Assembly: GCA_027488865.1 (NCBI GenBank)
Contig: JAIYAU010000016.1
Span: 1-64,000 of the forward strand
Origin: Cytophagaceae bacterium
GTDB lineage: Bacteria > Bacteroidota > Bacteroidia > Cytophagales > UBA9547
DNA: 64,000 nucleotides
Reading direction: 5' to 3'
Both the position numbers and the translations under genes were made by a program. The notes under the pieces were generated by a model that saw nothing but the letters and a program-made list of their open reading frames with translations, had not been told where the DNA came from and made no database searches. Positions within the stretch are counted from its first letter, which is position 1. Each line of letters starts with the position of its first letter. Of this stretch, positions 4,798 to 61,192 are shown in pieces.

Positions 4798-6864
4798 GTG
4801 CCTTACCCTTCAAATGTTCTTTTTCTGTCATTTGTAATAATACTTTTTCCATTGTTAAGTTTTTTGGTTCTTATTGAGGGCAAAAAAATCAATAACTGGG
4901 CAGGGCACATTGGTGTATTACTAACTGGAATATCTTTTGTTTGTTCCTTATTTTTAACCAACCAACAATGGAATCTACCACCATTTCAGATGCAAACTAC
5001 TTGGTTTTATGTAGGCAACAGTAGTTTTACAATTGGTATAACGCTAGATCATTTAGCACTAGTTATGTTAAGCCTTGTAACCCTGATTTCTACCTTGGTA
5101 CAATTATATTCTATTAGCTATATGCACGGAGAAAAGCATTATTTTAAATATTTTGCCTATCTCGGTATATTCACATTTTCCATGTTGGGAATCGTTACTA
5201 CCTCTAATCTCTTGGTTTTATATGGATTTTGGGAATTAGTAGGGCTTTCTTCGTATTTGTTAATTGGCTTTTGGTATCTAAACGACAAAGCTGTAAAAGC
5301 CAGCAAGAAAGCATTTATTGTAAATCGAATTGGTGATATAGGATTTTTATTAGGTATTATAATTTTATGGAATAACCTAGGGACGTTAGAATTTGAAGAA
5401 ATAATAGAAAAACTACCGAATAGTATTTCAAGTGACAATATTTGGCTTACCCTTGCTGGAATTGGATTAGTTTGTGGTTGTATAGGTAAATCCGCCCAAT
5501 TTCCTTTACATATTTGGCTACCTGATGCCATGCAAGGGCCTACTCCTGCTTCTGCATTAATCCATGCAGCCACCATGGTTGCAGCAGGTATTTATTTATT
5601 AGCTCGAGTTTTCCCGTTACTTGATGATGTTACACTCGCCATTTTGGTTGGGATAGGATCCATAACGGCATTTCTAGGGGCATTTTCTGCCAGTAGTCAG
5701 TTTGATATTAAAAAGATATTAGCCTACTCCACCATTTCGCAACTGGGTTTTATGGTAATGGCGATGGGCGTAAACGCAACCCATGCAGCCATTTTCCATT
5801 TAGTAACACATGCTTTTTTTAAGGCTGGACTTTTTCTTGCAGTCGGCGCAGTTATTCATGAGATGAGTAACTTAATAGGTAAAAGTCATGATGATCCACA
5901 AAACATTAAATTAATGGGTGGTTTATATCTTAAAATGCCCTTTACATTTATTTGTTATTTGTTATGCACACTATCAGCAATTGGGATGCCTTTCACTGCA
6001 GGATTCTTATCCAAAGATTTAATTATTAGTTATGTCTGGGCTTGGGCAGATCTTAAAAGCGCACAGTGGCAAAATCCAATCATTTACATTATACCCTTGC
6101 TGGCATTTATATCGACCTTACTCACAGCCTTTTATATGTCGAGACAGTTGGTTATGGTTTTTTTAGGTAAAAATAGATATACTGCCACCAACCCCACGCG
6201 TAATGATGTTTTTCAAGCATTACATGATCCCAATATTAAAATGCTAATCCCAATGATTATTTTGGCATTTTTTACCCCCTACATGTTATTTTCAACACAC
6301 CCATTTAGCGCAAACTTTAGCTGGATTTTACAAAAAATTCTGATCTTGCAATCTCAAGTTAGTCATATTGATATTGTATTCTTAACAGCGCTTGAGCATC
6401 ATAGACACATCTCTACCATGATTATTTGTGCTGGTTTAACTCTAATTTCAGTGGCATTCGCTTACATAAGATATGCAGTACCTAAAAGAATAATAGGAAT
6501 TACACCTAATACGATAATAAAAGGCCCTAGTCTTCTTACCCGTTTAGCACGAAACGCCTTTTATTTAGATACCTTATACCTGTTTGTGGCTATTAATTTT
6601 ACGCAGCATGTAGGTAATTTTTGTAAAAAGCTAGACAAAGGGATTGACAAATCAATAGATATATTGGCTATTACCCAGGTCGTCTTCTCACATATTATAC
6701 AATTTTTGGATAAAAAAATTGTGGATGGAACTATAAGTTTGATATCATTTTCTGTCTCAGGTATTGGCCAACTTTCTAGAAAAATATCCTCTGGACAAAT
6801 TCAGTTGTACATATTTTCCGTATTTCTTTTTATTATATTGATTATAACCATGCTATTAATTTAA
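4798..6864 (+). CDS. nuoL: NADH-quinone oxidoreductase subunit L (proton-pumping membrane subunit)
   Basis: 688 residues beginning at a GTG; about 16 hydrophobic segments. NuoL is the distal antiporter-like subunit of respiratory complex I. Diagnostic segments include YGFWELVGLSSYLLIGFW, GKSAQFPLHIWLPDAMQGPTP (helix 7 region), HAATMVAAGIYLLAR and GMPFTAGFLSKDLI with the channel lysine. The C-terminus has the LDKKIVDG lateral-helix region and a last membrane anchor ending the protein. That C-terminal helix favours NuoL over MrpA, HyfB or DabB relatives. No other nuo gene is in the window, so the complex I genes are split or this is an extra copy. Confidence 0.9.
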   Translation: MPYPSNVLFLSFVIILFPLLSFLVLIEGKKINNWAGHIGVLLTGISFVCSLFLTNQQWNLPPFQMQTTWFYVGNSSFTIGITLDHLALVMLSLVTLISTLVQLYSISYMHGEKHYFKYFAYLGIFTFSMLGIVTTSNLLVLYGFWELVGLSSYLLIGFWYLNDKAVKASKKAFIVNRIGDIGFLLGIIILWNNLGTLEFEEIIEKLPNSISSDNIWLTLAGIGLVCGCIGKSAQFPLHIWLPDAMQGPTPASALIHAATMVAAGIYLLARVFPLLDDVTLAILVGIGSITAFLGAFSASSQFDIKKILAYSTISQLGFMVMAMGVNATHAAIFHLVTHAFFKAGLFLAVGAVIHEMSNLIGKSHDDPQNIKLMGGLYLKMPFTFICYLLCTLSAIGMPFTAGFLSKDLIISYVWAWADLKSAQWQNPIIYIIPLLAFISTLLTAFYMSRQLVMVFLGKNRYTATNPTRNDVFQALHDPNIKMLIPMIILAFFTPYMLFSTHPFSANFSWILQKILILQSQVSHIDIVFLTALEHHRHISTMIICAGLTLISVAFAYIRYAVPKRIIGITPNTIIKGPSLLTRLARNAFYLDTLYLFVAINFTQHVGNFCKKLDKGIDKSIDILAITQVVFSHIIQFLDKKIVDGTISLISFSVSGIGQLSRKISSGQIQLYIFSVFLFIILIITMLLI

Positions 6865-7076
6865 AATTGCAGTAGTCCTTACCTATGTTTAGCATTCAGC
6901 TTATTCGACGAACACATTTTATTTAATCCAATAGAAGAGATAGTGCTGCAAAAATCTCATATTAATAAAATGGGTTAAAATAATCTTGTAAATATTTGAT
7001 TTGATATAGTACCTTAGTTAATTAAATAAATTTATCAAATAAGCATTTAATAATGCGAACTTTACAAAATTTAAGA

Positions 7077-9395
7077 CTAGTAATACATTACATCGATAAA
7101 GACATCCTGACTTCTGCCTTTATCATCAGCACAGGAAATTTTGGTTTTGCCTTGGGATGGGCTAAAAAATATCTTACTACTTGGACTCATGCGCTTATAA
7201 AATTTATCATTTATGTACCAATAAACAAGATTAACATCATTATGTGCTTGGCAAGCAAGTTGTATTTGTGGTGAATCACCTTTTTCCAAATAATATTCTT
7301 TCCCTCCTAAAGGTGATGTAATCTTGAGTTTATTCAAATCTATTAATCGAGTGCATGAAGGGTTATGCTCTGGTATTTTTTTAAAAGGTATTTGGTTCTC
7401 AATATAGAAAGTGATTAATTCAGGAGATAAGTTGTCAAATACCTTTTTCTTATAACCTGTTTGGGGTGTGCAATTTAAACAGTAACTGTATTTTTCGTCA
7501 GGACTAATTAAAAGCTCCTTTTTATGTTCACAAAGATGGTTGGAAGATACAGTTGGCATAAAATAATCCGTAATCATTTTTGTGCATAAGCTTGAGGGCG
7601 GTAATCCAGACTCCTCACATACTATTCTAAATTTTAAATCTTTGGGCTTTTTGTACCACGTTACATGGGAGTTATAATCTACGGTGTTAAAGACCTCAAA
7701 GAGCAAAGGGGTTGCTACTTCCATCCCGACAAGTTCAGGAACGGCCTCATTTGTAAAGTTTCCTAACCACACCCCTACTGTGAAGCTTTTATTATAACCA
7801 ATAGCCCATGCATCGCGTCTTCCATAAGAAGTACCTGTTTTCCAGGCAATTCTAGGAACGTGGTAGGTACTTTCAAAATTGTTTGGTAGGTCTGGCCGTG
7901 TGATTGCTGTTAAATTTTGAGTAATGATGAAGGAGGCTTCTTTAGAGATGATTTGGCGAGCCATTGGTTTAGGTTCATTTTGCATAAATTTTAGTGGTCT
8001 ATACTGCCCCTCATTGGCTAAAGCACAAAACGAGGCCGTAAGTTCTTGTAAGCTACAACCACAACCACCTAAAATAACGGAATGCCCTAATTTAGCTTGA
8101 TCTTTGGCTATTTGTTTGAAATCGAACTGCTTAAGACAGGTTACAAAATCTTGTACACCCATTTCATCCAAAATTTTAACGGCTGGTACGTTTAAGGAGT
8201 AGGCCAAGGCTGTTTCAATAGTCACAGGGCCATTGTATTTTTTATCAAAATTTTCAGGTTGATACCCATCTACTTCAAAAGGCACATCATTAACTACCAT
8301 TTTGGGAGTGATAATGCCTTTGTCAAAAGCATGGCCATATAAAAGGGGTTTTAAAGTGCTCCCTGGCGAACGAACGGCGGGGATTCCGTCCACCTGGCCA
8401 CCATGAACAGGATCATTAAAATCTTGAGAACCAACATATACCTTAACAGATGCATCTGTATTATCTACAACAAGGATAGCACCATTGTATATACCAACAG
8501 ATACTAGCCTTTGGCTATAATTCTTAAGAATTTCTGCTACCTTCCGTTGAGATTGTGCATCTATATAGGTGTGTAATTCCGTCATATTATTTTCATTTTT
8601 TAGTCTATTAGACAAATGAGGTGCTATTTTGTTAATAGGAAAATACCCAATTGAAAGTGGTTCTTGCAACGCGTCGCTTATTTGTGATTTCGTAAATAAA
8701 TGTTCTTTTTCAAAGTATTTAAGCCATCGATTTCGTTCTGATAATAAAATAGGTTTAGATTTTGTTAAAGACAGCGAATTGGGACGATTTGGCACAATTG
8801 TTAATACGGTGGTTTCACCAATACTCAATTGCCTAGGCGACTTTCCAAAAAAAAACAATGAAGCCGACTTAACCCCTTCTATATTTCCACCATAAGGCAC
8901 AAGGCTTAAATACATTTCAAATATTTCTTTTTTGGAGAAATTGATTTCCAGTTGCAATGCACGGAAAATCTCAGTGATCTTATTTAAATAAGTGCGTTTT
9001 TTGGGTTGAAGCATACGCACTACCTGCATGGTTATAGTAGAGGCACCGGATGTCTTTTTCTGACGCAAAATATTATTAGTCAACGCCCTAACAATAGCTA
9101 AAGGATTTACACCAGGATGGTTATAAAAATACTTATCCTCTTTATTGATAAATGCAGTAATAACATCAGGAGAGAGTTCTTCTAATTTAACCTTCATTCT
9201 CCACTTATCATTGGAGTTAAGATACCCATGAATTATTTGTCCCTTTTGGTCTAAAACAATTTTGGAATATTCGCACTGTGGAGCAAACGGAAAAAAAAAG
9301 TTAGCCAAGTAAAATGCCAAAACTGGCAAGAATATAAAAATAAATAAACCTGTCAAGGCTCTTCTTAAAAATTTCAAATGGACCTGTGTTATCAC
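7077..9395 (-). CDS. pbpC: Penicillin-binding protein 1C (bifunctional glycosyltransferase/transpeptidase)
   Basis: 772 residues, GTG start at 9395-9393. An N-terminal membrane anchor (about 13-32) is followed by a GT51 domain with catalytic E86 in NKEDKYFYNHPG and the GASTITMQ motif. The transpeptidase domain has SxxK at S346-K349 (PGSTLKP), SxN at S400-N402 (SLN) and KTG at 519-521. A C-terminal PBP1C-type beta-sandwich domain (about 680-772) closes it. It polymerises and cross-links peptidoglycan outside the inner membrane. pbpC often sits next to an alpha-2-macroglobulin gene, but not here; the upstream partner is a small membrane protein seven bases away. Confidence 0.95.
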   Translation of the reverse strand: MITQVHLKFLRRALTGLFIFIFLPVLAFYLANFFFPFAPQCEYSKIVLDQKGQIIHGYLNSNDKWRMKVKLEELSPDVITAFINKEDKYFYNHPGVNPLAIVRALTNNILRQKKTSGASTITMQVVRMLQPKKRTYLNKITEIFRALQLEINFSKKEIFEMYLSLVPYGGNIEGVKSASLFFFGKSPRQLSIGETTVLTIVPNRPNSLSLTKSKPILLSERNRWLKYFEKEHLFTKSQISDALQEPLSIGYFPINKIAPHLSNRLKNENNMTELHTYIDAQSQRKVAEILKNYSQRLVSVGIYNGAILVVDNTDASVKVYVGSQDFNDPVHGGQVDGIPAVRSPGSTLKPLLYGHAFDKGIITPKMVVNDVPFEVDGYQPENFDKKYNGPVTIETALAYSLNVPAVKILDEMGVQDFVTCLKQFDFKQIAKDQAKLGHSVILGGCGCSLQELTASFCALANEGQYRPLKFMQNEPKPMARQIISKEASFIITQNLTAITRPDLPNNFESTYHVPRIAWKTGTSYGRRDAWAIGYNKSFTVGVWLGNFTNEAVPELVGMEVATPLLFEVFNTVDYNSHVTWYKKPKDLKFRIVCEESGLPPSSLCTKMITDYFMPTVSSNHLCEHKKELLISPDEKYSYCLNCTPQTGYKKKVFDNLSPELITFYIENQIPFKKIPEHNPSCTRLIDLNKLKITSPLGGKEYYLEKGDSPQIQLACQAHNDVNLVYWYINDKFYKRMSPSSKIFFSPSQGKTKISCADDKGRSQDVFIDVMYY

Positions 9396-41820: not shown

Positions 41821-42489
41821 ATGAAAAAATTACAAAACATATTGATTTACTGCTTATGCTCATCACTCCTATTTGTTGGTTGTGCCATGAACAAGACCAA
41901 AAAAGGTGCTGCCATAGGGGTTGTAGGCGGCGGTGCCATGGGTGCAGTAATAGGTAGAGTGTCAGGCAATACCGCTCTTGGTGCTATTATAGGAGCTACT
42001 GTGGGTGGAGCTACAGGTGCAATTATTGGCAACAAAATGGACAAACAAGCTGCTGCTATTAAAAACACTGTTCCCAATGCTAAAGTGGAAAGGGTGGGCG
42101 AAGGTATAGTGGTTGAATTTAGTAGTGATATACTGTTCGGTTTTGACAAATCTGACTTATCTAACCAATCTGTGAGTTCATTAGATGAATTGGTAAAAGT
42201 ATTAAACAGCTATCCAGATACAGACATTGAGGTACAAGGACATACGGACGACAAAGGCACTGAAGACTACAATCAAAGCTTGTCAGAAAGACGCGCTGGG
42301 TCTACGAGCAGCTACTTGAGGCGACAAGGTATACCCAACCGAAGGATATCGATTAAAGGTTTTGGTGAATTGGCACCCAATTATAGTAATGGAACAGAAA
42401 ATGGGCGAAATGAAAATCGTAGGGTAGAGTTCCTAATATCTGCCAATAAAAAAATGAAATCAGAAGCCAAAAAAGAGGCCTCAAACTAA
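41821..42489 (+). CDS. OmpA-family lipoprotein with glycine-zipper domain
   Basis: 222 residues; lipobox FVGC with C21. Residues about 28-75 are a glycine-zipper (GAAIGVVGGGAMGAVIG, TVGGATGAIIGNKMD) that can insert into or associate with the membrane. The C-terminal OmpA domain (about 100-212) binds peptidoglycan: SDILFGFDKSDLS, EVQGHTDDKGTEDYNQSLSERRA (key D and R residues present), and NRRVEFLI. This is the Pal/YiaD-type arrangement, tying outer membrane to wall. It precedes the frameshifted barrel gene by 24 bases. Confidence 0.9.
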   Translation: MKKLQNILIYCLCSSLLFVGCAMNKTKKGAAIGVVGGGAMGAVIGRVSGNTALGAIIGATVGGATGAIIGNKMDKQAAAIKNTVPNAKVERVGEGIVVEFSSDILFGFDKSDLSNQSVSSLDELVKVLNSYPDTDIEVQGHTDDKGTEDYNQSLSERRAGSTSSYLRRQGIPNRRISIKGFGELAPNYSNGTENGRNENRRVEFLISANKKMKSEAKKEASN

Positions 42490-42513
42490 TATTGATCTTT
42501 TAACATAAATACC

Positions 42514-43189
42514 ATGAAAAAAACACTATTTACAATCGTTGCCCTGTATTTGACTACAATCTCAATCTTGCAAGCGCAAAATGGCGACCAGCCAAAGACA
42601 TCCTTTGCTATTCTAGGAGGCATTAATTTTCAAAATCTAAATGGAAAAGATTTTAAAGGTGATAAACTCGACAATGATATGGTAGTTGGCTACCATGTTG
42701 GCCTTAATGTTCAGATTCCATTAGTGCCAGAATTTTACTTTCAACCTGGTTTAATATTCAACACGAAAGGCTCCAAACATAAAAGCGGGTTTACCACCAG
42801 CACCTACAGGATTTCTTACTTAGAAATACCCCTTAATTTTGTTTATAAAGGCCAATTAGGCAATGGTTTCATCTTTTTGGGCTTGGGTCCCTACGTTGGT
42901 TATGCCATTCAGGGAAAAGTAAAAAATGTTACGAACTCGGTTGAAGTAAAAGATGATATCGAATTTACCAACGAAGTAAATACAAGTGATTCCTATTCCA
43001 AGTCATTTAAGAAGAATGGATGTAGGAGGTAATATTTTCTTTGGTTATGAAATGGCCAATGGTTTATTTGCGCAATTAAATACCCAACTAGGATTGATCA
43101 AAATTAATCCTAAAGACAACAGAATAACCGACGATAAAACGTCCGTTAAAAATACTGGTTTCGGAGCTTCTTTGGGTTATAGATTTTAA
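42514..43189 (+). pseudogene. Outer-membrane beta-barrel protein (PorT/OMP_b-brl family), frameshifted
   Basis: Two overlapping frames together make one barrel protein of about 224 residues. The first (42514-43032) has signal peptide (1-21, LQAQ), then FAILGGINFQNLNGKDFKGDKL and strands up to SYSKSFK. The second frame continues MDVGGNIFFGYEMANGLFAQLNTQ to GFGASLGYRF, the expected final strands with terminal Phe. Skipping one base near 43008-43017 (in the AAGAAGAATGG stretch) restores the frame. Either a genuine recent mutation, giving a 172-residue truncated barrel, or a sequencing/assembly error; the sequence cannot decide. It borders the 43.2-kb repeat island. Confidence 0.8.
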
Positions 43190-43232
43190 GGATGCATATT
43201 TTTTAACCATTTATAAGTTTCTCCAATCCCTA

Positions 43233-43261
43233 CCGATGCCTTTGCCCCAAGCGAAGGCATC
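43233..43261. repeat. REP-like palindrome, left copy
   Basis: GATGCCTTTGC (43235-43245) faces GCGAAGGCATC (43251-43261), an 11-bp stem with one G-T wobble around a 5-base loop, preceded by CC. The same sequence reappears at the other side of the 11-bp array. Confidence 0.85.
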
Positions 43262-43338
43262 TGTATCACCTGCCATTTCCCTATTTCGAAAATATAGCTC
43301 GTTGGTCGATATATAAATATGTTTCATTTTTTAAAATT

Positions 43339-43536
43339 TTCTACTTTGTTTCTATGTTGTTTCTACTCGCGTTCTATGTTGCTTCTATGACCTATACATT
43401 CCGCTTCTATTCGCGTTCTATACTGCTTCTATCGGGGTTCTACTCGCTGGCCTGTAGGTTTCTCCTAGGTATCCTGTAGGTATCCCCTAGGTATCTATGA
43501 TCTCTCTACTTTTTCTCTATTCTGTCTCTATGTTCT
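43339..43536. repeat. Tandem array of eighteen degenerate 11-bp units
   Basis: Eighteen consecutive 11-base units with no gap or phase slip (198 bases). Examples: TTCTACTTTGT, TTCTATGTTGT, TTCTACTCGCG, TTCTATGTTGC, TTCTATTCGCG, TTCTATACTGC, TTCTATCGGGG, CTCTATTCTGT. Thirteen units begin NTCTAY; units 11-14 (43449-43492) belong to a second type, alternating CTGTAGGT and CCTAGGT endings with a 22-bp super-period. Because 11 is not a multiple of three and stops occur, it is not a coding repeat. On the opposite strand the shared core reads RTAGAA. Function unknown. Confidence 0.9.
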
Positions 43537-43543
43537 GTATAAA

Positions 43544-43588
43544 CCGATGCCTTCGCTCGAGCGAAGGCATCAGTCGCGAAGGCATCGG
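43544..43588. repeat. REP-like double palindrome, right copy
   Basis: A perfect 26-bp palindrome spans 43546-43571 (GATGCCTTCGCTC and its complement). A third arm, GCGAAGGCATCGG (43576-43588), is a perfect 13-base complement of 43544-43556, so two mutually exclusive hairpins can form. The arms match the left copy at 43235-43261. Confidence 0.9.
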
Positions 43589-43730
43589 AAAAATATTTTA
43601 CAAAAAAATTCAGAAGGCAAATGGATTGCACGCTGCTCGCTTAGTATTGCACCATGAAACGACGCAAGAGGGTCTTGCGCTAAAAAACAAAAACCATTAT
43701 TAACATGTCAAAAAATTCAAACAACCAATC

Positions 43731-44657
43731 TTATATCATGTTTTTACTTCTTATGCTTCCATACATTTCATGCATGATTGGCATGTGTGGTGCAGTGAGC
43801 ACCGCAAGACCTAAAAAAAGATAGCTCATCATGGCACTATCGCTGGTAAACATAAACCCTGCTGCGCCACATAGGCCAATCCCGATAAAGGCCAAAGTGC
43901 TGTAAAAAACTATTTTCTTAAAAATCATCCAATTTGATAAAGTGCCGTTCTTTTTAAGATAACCAACAATTTTATCAAGAGATAAGACAGAATGCCATGT
44001 AACGAAGTAGAAGGTAAATCCTAAAAGCATGGGGAGATGAAATAATATAAAAACGAGTAAAGCCATTCTTACAAGAAAATGTCCTCCATCGTATTGATCG
44101 TTATTCTTTAAAAAATAGACAAACATAGTAACAAAAAAAGTTATGCCAACGAAGCTCAAAATACTGTATCGGTTGAGGTCAATCCAATTTATCAAACTTA
44201 AGTTTGCTCTTCCAGCAGGAAATAATTGATAAAGCGGCCTAATAAATTCAAAATGATGAACTAAAATAACCGAAAGAATAACAGAGCCATAACAAAAAAC
44301 GAAAACCTTACCTGCTAAAGTGTTGGTCTTAAACTGAGATAAATCTGTTTCACCAAAATGATATGCAGCGAATAGAACAAAAAGCACGTTGCCAACTACG
44401 GGAAACAAAAAGAGCAATGCTGCAAATAAAACAAGCTTAGATAAATATGTAAGAAAAAAGCCTTTGATAGAAAAAACCTTACCCATGTTGCTGGCATTTA
44501 CTTTAGCCACTAATAAATCAGCAGCCCCATGCGGAACACCTAAAATCGTCACGCCGATTAAGAACAAAATAAACTGCGATTTGGGGTTTATTGGCTTTAA
44601 AAAATATTGACTAAGTACTAAAATAAATCCAAGTATGAATAATATTATACGAATCAT
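43731..44657 (-). CDS. blh: Brp/Blh-family beta-carotene 15,15'-dioxygenase
   Basis: 308 residues with about nine membrane helices. Blh splits beta-carotene into two retinal molecules, the chromophore of microbial rhodopsins. The conserved histidines are in place: LGVPHGAADLL (H43), AAYHFGETDL (H100), FVTWHSVLS (H222) and APHMPIMHEMY (H291, H296). It lies 97 bases downstream of the rhodopsin gene on the same strand, the classic cassette. A terminator-like hairpin sits just before its start, so it may rely on read-through or a weak promoter of its own. No carotenoid genes (crtB/I/Y) are in the window. Confidence 0.95.
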   Translation of the reverse strand: MIRIILFILGFILVLSQYFLKPINPKSQFILFLIGVTILGVPHGAADLLVAKVNASNMGKVFSIKGFFLTYLSKLVLFAALLFLFPVVGNVLFVLFAAYHFGETDLSQFKTNTLAGKVFVFCYGSVILSVILVHHFEFIRPLYQLFPAGRANLSLINWIDLNRYSILSFVGITFFVTMFVYFLKNNDQYDGGHFLVRMALLVFILFHLPMLLGFTFYFVTWHSVLSLDKIVGYLKKNGTLSNWMIFKKIVFYSTLAFIGIGLCGAAGFMFTSDSAMMSYLFLGLAVLTAPHMPIMHEMYGSIRSKNMI

Positions 44658-44667
44658 TTTTGTAAGT

Positions 44668-44701
44668 GAAAAAAATGAGGCCGTCCATTACGACAGCCTC
44701 T
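44668..44701 (-). terminator. Hairpin and T-tract between the rhodopsin and blh genes
   Basis: On the minus strand GAGGCTGTC pairs with GGACGGCCTC (9 bp with one T-G) around a short loop, followed by ATTTTTTT. It ends about 11 bases before the blh start, so it could attenuate rather than block expression of blh. Confidence 0.8.
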
Positions 44702-44754
44702 TTTAACTAAGCGGTAACTATGTTTACGTTATTAAAAAATATCCCAAATTAAGT

Positions 44755-45492
44755 TTATGCTAGTTTGGAAGATTCTTCTGATTTGGCCAAAGCGTAAATA
44801 ACCAACCCAAAGCCGATTTTATTCACTGCATCACCAATGTTATATACAATATCCATAGATAAACCTTCAAATATTCTCACGCCGAACAATCCACCCGCAG
44901 TACCTGCAATGTAACCAATTGGGTAAATGGCCCATCCTACCAATACAAACCAAGCCAATATTTTAACAGCTTTAGCCACAGCAGCACCAGAATTACTTGC
45001 AAGCTTGGCTACATCACCAAACCAGATTAAGTACACTATATAGAAATAGGCCACGCTACTGATAAAGCCCCAAACCCAGCTTTGAGTTTCATTGCCATAT
45101 ATTGCCTCACCTATGTATCCGGTTACCAACATTACCAATGAAGCAAAAATGAGTTTCCATAATAATTCGATTTTGGCACCAGCTTTTTTAGTAATCAAAT
45201 AAAACTCAACACACATCAAAGGCACAGTAAGTATCCAATCTACATATCTAAAAAACACTGGAGATTCGCCCGTATCTAGGTTGTAACCACGCATATAGTA
45301 ATAATGCACTGCCGCAATAAAAGTGATCAAACCAGAAACCAGCACAGAGGTTCGCCATTTCTTTTCTACATTCGACAATTCAAAAAAGAAAAAAACACTG
45401 GCAGCCATCATGGCCATAGTGCCTACAAAGAAGGTAAAAGCAACATAATTGTTGTTGGCAATGGGAGCCATTGCGAGCACGTTATTCATCAT
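44755..45492 (-). CDS. Proteorhodopsin (light-driven outward proton pump, predicted green-absorbing)
   Basis: 245 residues, seven helices. Helix C reads RYVDWILTVPLMCVEFYL: proton acceptor D85, T89 and donor E96 form the D-T-E pump motif, with H63 on helix B matching the proteorhodopsin acceptor-pairing His. The tuning residue equivalent to position 105 is M93, as in flavobacterial green-absorbing pumps. The Schiff-base lysine is K225, with D221 one turn before it (IGDAVNKIGFG). These residues exclude the Na+ (NDQ) and Cl- pump types. It would add to proton-motive force in light. Retinal comes from the adjacent blh. Start: tandem ATG ATG; either could be used. Confidence 0.97.
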   Translation of the reverse strand: MMNNVLAMAPIANNNYVAFTFFVGTMAMMAASVFFFFELSNVEKKWRTSVLVSGLITFIAAVHYYYMRGYNLDTGESPVFFRYVDWILTVPLMCVEFYLITKKAGAKIELLWKLIFASLVMLVTGYIGEAIYGNETQSWVWGFISSVAYFYIVYLIWFGDVAKLASNSGAAVAKAVKILAWFVLVGWAIYPIGYIAGTAGGLFGVRIFEGLSMDIVYNIGDAVNKIGFGLVIYALAKSEESSKLA

Positions 45493-60677: not shown

Positions 60678-60752
60678 AATTGAAAATGAAAAATTGAAAA
60701 TTGGTAATATTAAGAAGTAACTTATCAATTATCAATTATCAATTCTCAAATT
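60678..60752. repeat. Degenerate AT-rich inverted repeat with tandem ATCAATT units
   Basis: The left arm (60678-60707, TGAAAATTGAAAATTG-type) is complementary, imperfectly, to the right arm (60722-60752), which consists of ATCAATT repeated three times plus a variant. It would fold into a large hairpin between convergent genes and may serve as a terminator; similar sequences are common in Bacteroidota intergenic DNA, from memory. Confidence 0.6.
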
Positions 60753-61192
60753 CCTAGTTCCTTGCACCAACGGTTATATTGTTCACTAATTTTCACACTA
60801 ATCAATTCAAAATTTTCCCAACTATCTTTTACATGGTAAATTGATGGGAGTTGGGTGGCTAGTAGTTTTTCGTAGTCACGCTTAAAAAGTCCTCCACCGT
60901 AGTAATAGTAAGTAAACATATTTCCTTCCTGGGTAAATAAGTTACTTCCTAATGCACCACCCCATATTTCTGATAACATGGCAGGGCTTATTTGTTTGTT
61001 TTTAAAACGAAATATTTGGGTGTCACATTCCTCTTCAAAAAAATCGCTATATAAATTATTTGAAACTATCCAACCTAAATACATACCTATGTGTACATAC
61101 GCTTGATCGATTGGGAGTTGATCGGGAAATCCCCCAGACATAAAGTGCTGAGAGGCCTTATCATATAAATTTCCAGTGATGCTTTGAGCCAT
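60746..61192 (-). CDS. DUF7832-like hypothetical protein
   Basis: 148 residues, no signal or membrane segment. Landmarks: GFPDQLPIDQAYVHIGMYLGWIVSNNLYSDFF and AMLSEIWGGALGSNLF, which recall the DUF7832 group; its function is unknown. The C-terminal part is rich in aromatic residues (FTYYYYGGGLFKRDYEKLL). It converges with the small lipoprotein gene through the inverted repeat at 60678. Confidence 0.65.
   Translation of the reverse strand: MAQSITGNLYDKASQHFMSGGFPDQLPIDQAYVHIGMYLGWIVSNNLYSDFFEEECDTQIFRFKNKQISPAMLSEIWGGALGSNLFTQEGNMFTYYYYGGGLFKRDYEKLLATQLPSIYHVKDSWENFELISVKISEQYNRWCKELGI

Follow-up and report, generated by a model that had tools for sequence, protein, structure and literature searches.

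A dispersed family of degenerate 11-bp tandem arrays bordering a multi-copy orphan gene cassette in a Bacteroidota genome

In cyanobacteria, the short tandemly repeated repetitive (STRR) heptamers occur as numerous arrays dispersed between genes, made of short, degenerate units placed head to tail at one fixed period. Operators of the OmpR/PhoB type are built from direct repeats, also head-to-tail, that recur every 11 or 22 bp. In SARP sites the direct repeats are 11 or 22 bp apart, one or two helical turns (PMC10936776). The array family described here resembles STRR in its scattered degenerate head-to-tail arrays of one period, and one of its classes (class B) even has heptamers beside it, but its period is 11 rather than 7, several unit families share that period, and it borders a multi-copy gene cassette. 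SARP and OmpR/PhoB operators typically consist of two or three units that abut the promoter or overlap it, whereas the present arrays comprise 4-18 units, lie further upstream, and stand at a variable distance from the promoter in two classes.

A likeness to REP/BIME elements with their RAYT transposases lies in the short, dispersed intergenic repeats, in REP-like palindromes at the array studied here, and in a RAYT gene that follows the cassette on contig C47; however, what is repeated at the core is a tandem array of 11-bp units rather than a palindrome, and most arrays are palindrome-free. The 20-40 nt palindromic unit that defines REP/BIME by many intergenic copies was found at only two sites, both in the window, in 1.62 Mb of the genome. 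One intact RAYT gene (Y1 HUH) of the C47 kind was found in the genome, matching NF047646 with an E value of 3e-13, under the curated cut-off, and most arrays have none beside them. As in bacterial minisatellites (VNTR), the units are tandem and head-to-tail and whole units are gained or lost, paralogous copies within the one genome showing whole-unit exchange; unlike in VNTR, the unit number of class B is constant (seven in all copies read) and diverged arrays are copied whole elsewhere. A CRISPR array, with its identical 23-50 bp repeats, is excluded by the period of 11, the contiguous diverged units and the lack of spacers, and no replication initiator, as expected beside plasmid iterons, was seen among the array neighbours scanned for genes. 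Literature searches did not find a described dispersed 11-bp array.

The window array and its flanks

The window, meaning the whole stretch of 64,000 nucleotides analysed, comes from a Bacteroidota draft genome (G000) of 64 contigs and 4.33 Mb. The features of the locus are as follows.

43232-43264, + strand: REP-like imperfect palindrome 1, ACCGATGCCTTTGCCCCAAGCGAAGGCATCTGT, with related palindromes beside the C47 RAYT gene
43275-43338, + strand: conserved AT-rich left leader, TTTCGAAAATATAGCTCGTTGGTCGATATATAAATATGTTTCATTTTTTAAAATT, common to C30, C14:168.5k and C55:35.7k
43339-43536, + strand: degenerate 11-bp array of 18 units (class A), from the unit split and the alignment with C30, C47 and C45
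43449-43492, + strand: four second-type units, GGCCTGTAGGT, TTCTCCTAGGT, ATCCTGTAGGT and ATCCCCTAGGT, with a 22-bp super-period
43543-43588, + strand: REP-like palindrome 2 with an extra half-copy, CCGATGCCTTCGC...GCGAAGGCATC...GCGAAGGCATCGG, with homologues in C47 and C45
43617-43704, + strand: cassette leader, likely promoter, with motif AAATGGATTGCACGCTG at 43619-43635 and hairpin CGCAAGA-GGG-TCTTGCG at 43663-43679
43705-43824, + strand: short ORF of 39 aa, ATG at 43705, starting MSKNSNN like the C47 cassette gene
43731-44657, - strand: blh (Pfam BCD)
44755-45492, - strand: rhodopsin gene (Pfam Bac_rhodopsin)

The unit split and the lag analysis agree with the initial annotation, which had read 43339-43536 as eighteen 11-bp units without a slip, thirteen of them beginning NTCTAY and four belonging to a second type with a 22-bp super-period: the stretch divides into exactly eighteen 11-mers with zero slips, 13 of 18 start NTCTAY, and the second-type units alternate at 22 bp (CCTGTAGG/CCTAGG type). 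Identity within the array is 0.578 at lag 11 and 0.619 at lag 22, compared with an average of 0.275 (SD 0.040) over the window; the lag-11 value is the highest of the 64-kb window, and of all lags scanned from 5 to 59 only 11, 22, 33, 44 and 55 have their window-wide peak at the array. The shuffled-sequence control proposed in that annotation did not reach equal periodicity by chance, the observed lag-11 identity lying ~8 SD above the mean of 2000 dinucleotide shuffles and the maximum for any lag from 5 to 30 in 1000 shuffles being 0.44. Tandem Repeats Finder recovered the array in pieces only. Its + strand is 71% pyrimidine.

A structured RNA within the array found no support, the fold of the array being nothing unusual relative to shuffles (z +0.3 and -1.4 on the two strands) and Rfam models giving zero matches to 42400-44800 up to E 1. 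The larger element, comprising the array with its flanks, does fold significantly (z about -4), which is most simply attributed to the palindromes.

The coordinates and Pfam matches of blh and the rhodopsin gene confirm that the array lies downstream of the rhodopsin cassette, 195 bp separating its end from the 3' end of blh, but the proposed tie to that cassette fails: copies of the array adjoin many unrelated genes, ruling out a rhodopsin-specific feature. The genome has 11 exact or one-mismatch occurrences of the leader motif AAATGGATTGCACGCTG, almost all of them adjoining arrays or cassette genes, and the leader is likely to be the promoter of the cassette. From its ATG the short ORF continues across the 3' end of blh in antisense and ends after 39 codons, while at the matching position in C47 there is a 190-aa gene with the same first codons. 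The ORF is probably a truncated cassette gene, and the window copy has the appearance of a decayed cassette, convergent with blh and the rhodopsin gene. A further trace of copying is seen at C36:7459-7645 (L046, L089), where window positions 43617-43803 recur over 187 bp at 82% identity; since the C36 piece holds the leader together with a decayed version of the final 23 blh codons, the window locus, or an ancestor of it, was copied along with neighbouring host DNA. On the other side of the array, the left leader recurs at C55:35.7k with no class A array behind it, and alignment shows the palindrome 2 homologues in C47 and C45 to be altered by indels.

Array classes and the cassette gene

Further copies were found throughout the genome when it was searched as the initial annotation had advised. 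The clearest excess among non-codon periods, in a census covering 1.62 of 4.33 Mb with first-order Markov simulation as the reference, was at 11 and in the 7/14 series, and dozens of further 11-bp array sites fall into several sequence classes, so that the whole-genome pattern and sequence searches rule out a one-site curiosity. TCTAY repeated three times at 11-bp intervals gave 37 genome matches versus 4 for the reversed pattern, and class C gave 20 genome sites versus 0 for the reversed control.

Class A copies with the same unit order as the window array lie at the contig ends of C30, C47 and C45 (93, 83 and 82% identity), C30 and C47 being 100% identical across a 93-bp overlap, which indicates that this repeat breaks the assembly. 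Class B consists of seven units, TATATACTTTC TTTCTATATCC TACGGTGTAGG TTTCTACTTCC (TTTCTACTTCC) TTTCTACTAGG TCTCTATAAAG, and occurs at ten places, on C4 (twice), C5, C8, C14, C15, C41, C44, C53 and C61, usually with heptamer repeats 3' of it, then the leader motif, then a second gene (MKYKDFPKLL...). Class C, with units TATCCTACGGT CATCTTCCAAG CATCCTTCGAG TATGTTCCCTT, precedes most internal copies of the cassette gene; its copies are homologous from the first array unit, or from a few bases ahead of it, through spacer, leader and gene, and array-only remnants are found at C55:121939, C40:188623 and C49:11448. Class D, made of CATCTTCCRAG units, occurs at four places in the 1.62-Mb sample (C14:3402, C40:216855, C5:200469 and C55:35561), in all four between two imperfect direct repeats, AATTGTACTTTTCCAATAT / AATTGGACATTTCCAAG, at a constant spacing of exactly 94 bp, and class E, TACCTATG, at a single site of that sample (C14:107608-107742). 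Unit sequences diverge strongly among classes, while classes A-D share the period and a pyrimidine-rich strand (judged by eye except for the window array); wherever a cassette gene is present, this strand is its sense strand. Array-only copies occupy divergent, convergent and tandem intergenic gaps beside unrelated genes, and the diversity of the neighbours led us to reject a common regulon.

Degenerate 7-bp arrays (AATTGAT, AATTGTG, TTATCAA) are also present at several places in the genome, and in class B they separate the leader from the 11-bp array (e.g. L080, L081, L085). A degenerate heptamer array lies at 60706-60768 of the window.

The cassette gene encodes a putative protein of ~170-190 aa with a G-x-x-G-N-x-V-F-R core, and protein search gives ~23 matches in the genome, some partial at contig ends. 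In C47, where the gene lies at 6731-7303, the order is cassette gene, REP-like palindrome, RAYT gene and another palindrome. Paralogues of a WYL-domain regulator adjoin cassette loci at C47:4875-5873 and C55:34479-35471. Comparison with Pfam, NCBIfam, PHROG and PDB assigned the protein to no family and gave one weak Ig-like match; by sequence, the gene is an amplified orphan family whose predicted product has no assigned function. It was found in only 3 of 147 other relatives, in single to few copies, and the regions upstream of it in those three carry no 11-bp array.

No comparable array family was found among 394 other Bacteroidota genomes, in a set where the source genome alone represents its genus. 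Four-unit TCTAY arrays with an 11-bp period occur in seven of the 394, as near-perfect simple repeats of apparently independent origin, versus two genomes for a period-10 control. The two-unit CTTCCRAG pattern, short enough for a few chance matches to be expected in 84,980 genomes, was found at seven places in that collection (from which the source genome may be absent), none recognisably related by title. In a genome of another genus of the same family (G006), C388:7365-7477 (L287) holds two three-unit CTAT arrays with an 11-bp period, between two genes resembling a restriction-modification locus.

Phase keeping and distance to the promoter

Copies within a class retain unit order and phase, and differ by substitutions, by occasional whole-unit changes and by almost no indels. 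When the window was compared with C30, C47 and C45, the class A array showed 30 substitutions and 0 gaps and the downstream region 43 substitutions and 9 gap events, in comparisons that share history and with downstream palindromes that are prone to indels. Among class C copies, the pairwise ratios of gaps to substitutions were 2/554 in the array, 73/725 in the spacer and 13/513 in the leader, where the pairs are non-independent and many gaps in the spacer are alignment pairs, given that 11 of the 13 copies have a spacer of 33 bp. All ten class B arrays have exact borders, although subgroups differ by the gain of one unit and the loss of another, and whole-unit changes are seen as a repeated TTTCTACTTCC in class B and a repeated CCTACGGTCAT at C49.

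Phase keeping is therefore real, and the initial observation that phase is kept while the units drift extends across copies, given the absence of gaps in class A arrays and the exact borders in class B. Whole-block copying combined with unit-sized changes fits this pattern as well as selection does, and the low indel rate within the arrays is suggestive only. Class C has a nearly fixed geometry, with 74-77 bp between the array and the promoter hairpin in 13 of 13 copies and 39-40 bp of leader from the hairpin to the ATG. In class B the distance from array to promoter ranges from 134 to 204 bp, with modulo-11 remainders of 6, 1, 6, 4, 9, 2 and 4, and in class A the distances differ by 19 bp. 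Helical phasing to the promoter is thus not general, as the distance is fixed in class C and variable in A and B. The selection on helical spacing that had been proposed would fit the scarcity of array indels and the fixed class C distance, but the class A and B distances do not vary by multiples of 11, and the 7-bp arrays, whose period has no helical meaning and which are degenerate all the same, weigh against it.

Origin of the arrays

Shared order of diverged units and shared borders at unrelated loci indicate that the arrays were copied as whole blocks. We consider it probable, with room for other readings, that the array serves as the non-coding module at the upstream end of a cassette family that is dispersed in many copies and peculiar to this genome. 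The complete cassette would begin with the 11-bp array, followed, according to class, by a short spacer, by heptamer repeats or by palindromes, and then by the promoter leader and the gene of ~170-190 aa, with a REP palindrome and the RAYT gene added after the cassette gene in C47, and the window would hold a decayed cassette whose ORF enters the 3' end of blh. The module would have been copied to many intergenic sites, with the gene or alone, and within each copy the array would age by point mutation and occasional gain or loss of a whole unit, leaving the phase intact. The dispersal itself, the shared unit order, the class C left border, the array-only copies and the retention of phase are direct observations. 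The copying would be transposition-like, with the array travelling as an end and not serving as the target of a regulator, and the phase would persist mainly because, among diverged units, substitutions and changes of unit length are the usual mutations. That indels are fewer inside the arrays than beside them is not expected of a purely passive module. The early suggestion that the array might be the core of a non-coding mobile element agrees with the dispersed family and with the position of the array at the left border in one class, but neither terminal inverted repeats nor a target-site duplication was seen by eye at the copies, the left border being sharp in class C and the right border undefined.

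The main rival, which we regard as unlikely overall and most plausible for class C, is a phased operator array in which the 11-bp units are head-to-tail sites for a regulator or nucleoid protein at the cassette promoter, the copies forming a regulon of the cassette family. Such a role would account for the constant class C geometry and the very few indels in the arrays, has a precedent in the spacing of SARP repeats (PMC10936776), and could involve the WYL-type regulator genes beside the C47 and C55 loci; it is opposed by the class B and class A distances, which keep no constant helical remainder and differ by 19 bp, respectively, by array-only copies in gaps of every orientation beside unrelated genes, and by the strong dissimilarity of units between classes.

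It is similarly doubtful, if conceivable, that the 11-bp array is the recognised end of a new bacterial dispersed element with a protein that would read the spacing rather than one sequence, in which case unit families could diverge while the period is kept, and the array end would move cassettes, or itself, in trans.

Ordinary minisatellites, arising by independent replication slippage with later divergence and with the cassette gene merely hitch-hiking, are less probable still. The near-perfect TCTAY arrays in other Bacteroidota, more frequent than those of period 10, and the degenerate 7-bp arrays of the source genome are in line with such an origin, but independent slippage cannot yield the same order of diverged units and common borders at unrelated loci. 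It is largely refuted as the source of the copy number in classes A-D; the first origin of each class may still be of this kind.

Least probable of all is a REP/RAYT system in which array and palindromes form a BIME-like unit mobilised by the C47 RAYT, for although palindromes flank the window array and the C47 RAYT gene, and a second start of the gene-palindrome-RAYT order is found at the C33 contig end, with 97% identity across 262 bp, arrays are frequent in the 1.62 Mb of which the two window sites alone carry the palindrome, and it is absent from class B, C and D loci. With most arrays lacking a palindrome, RAYT as the mover can at best explain class A, and the palindrome was likewise rejected as a common right end.

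One genome thus contains several nearly unrelated unit sequences with one exact period, bordering a family of orphan genes that has been amplified. Should a protein read the spacing, the arrays would represent a mobile or regulatory signal carried by spacing rather than by sequence; if none does, they would provide a clear case of degenerate arrays that seem phase-selected merely through whole-block copying.
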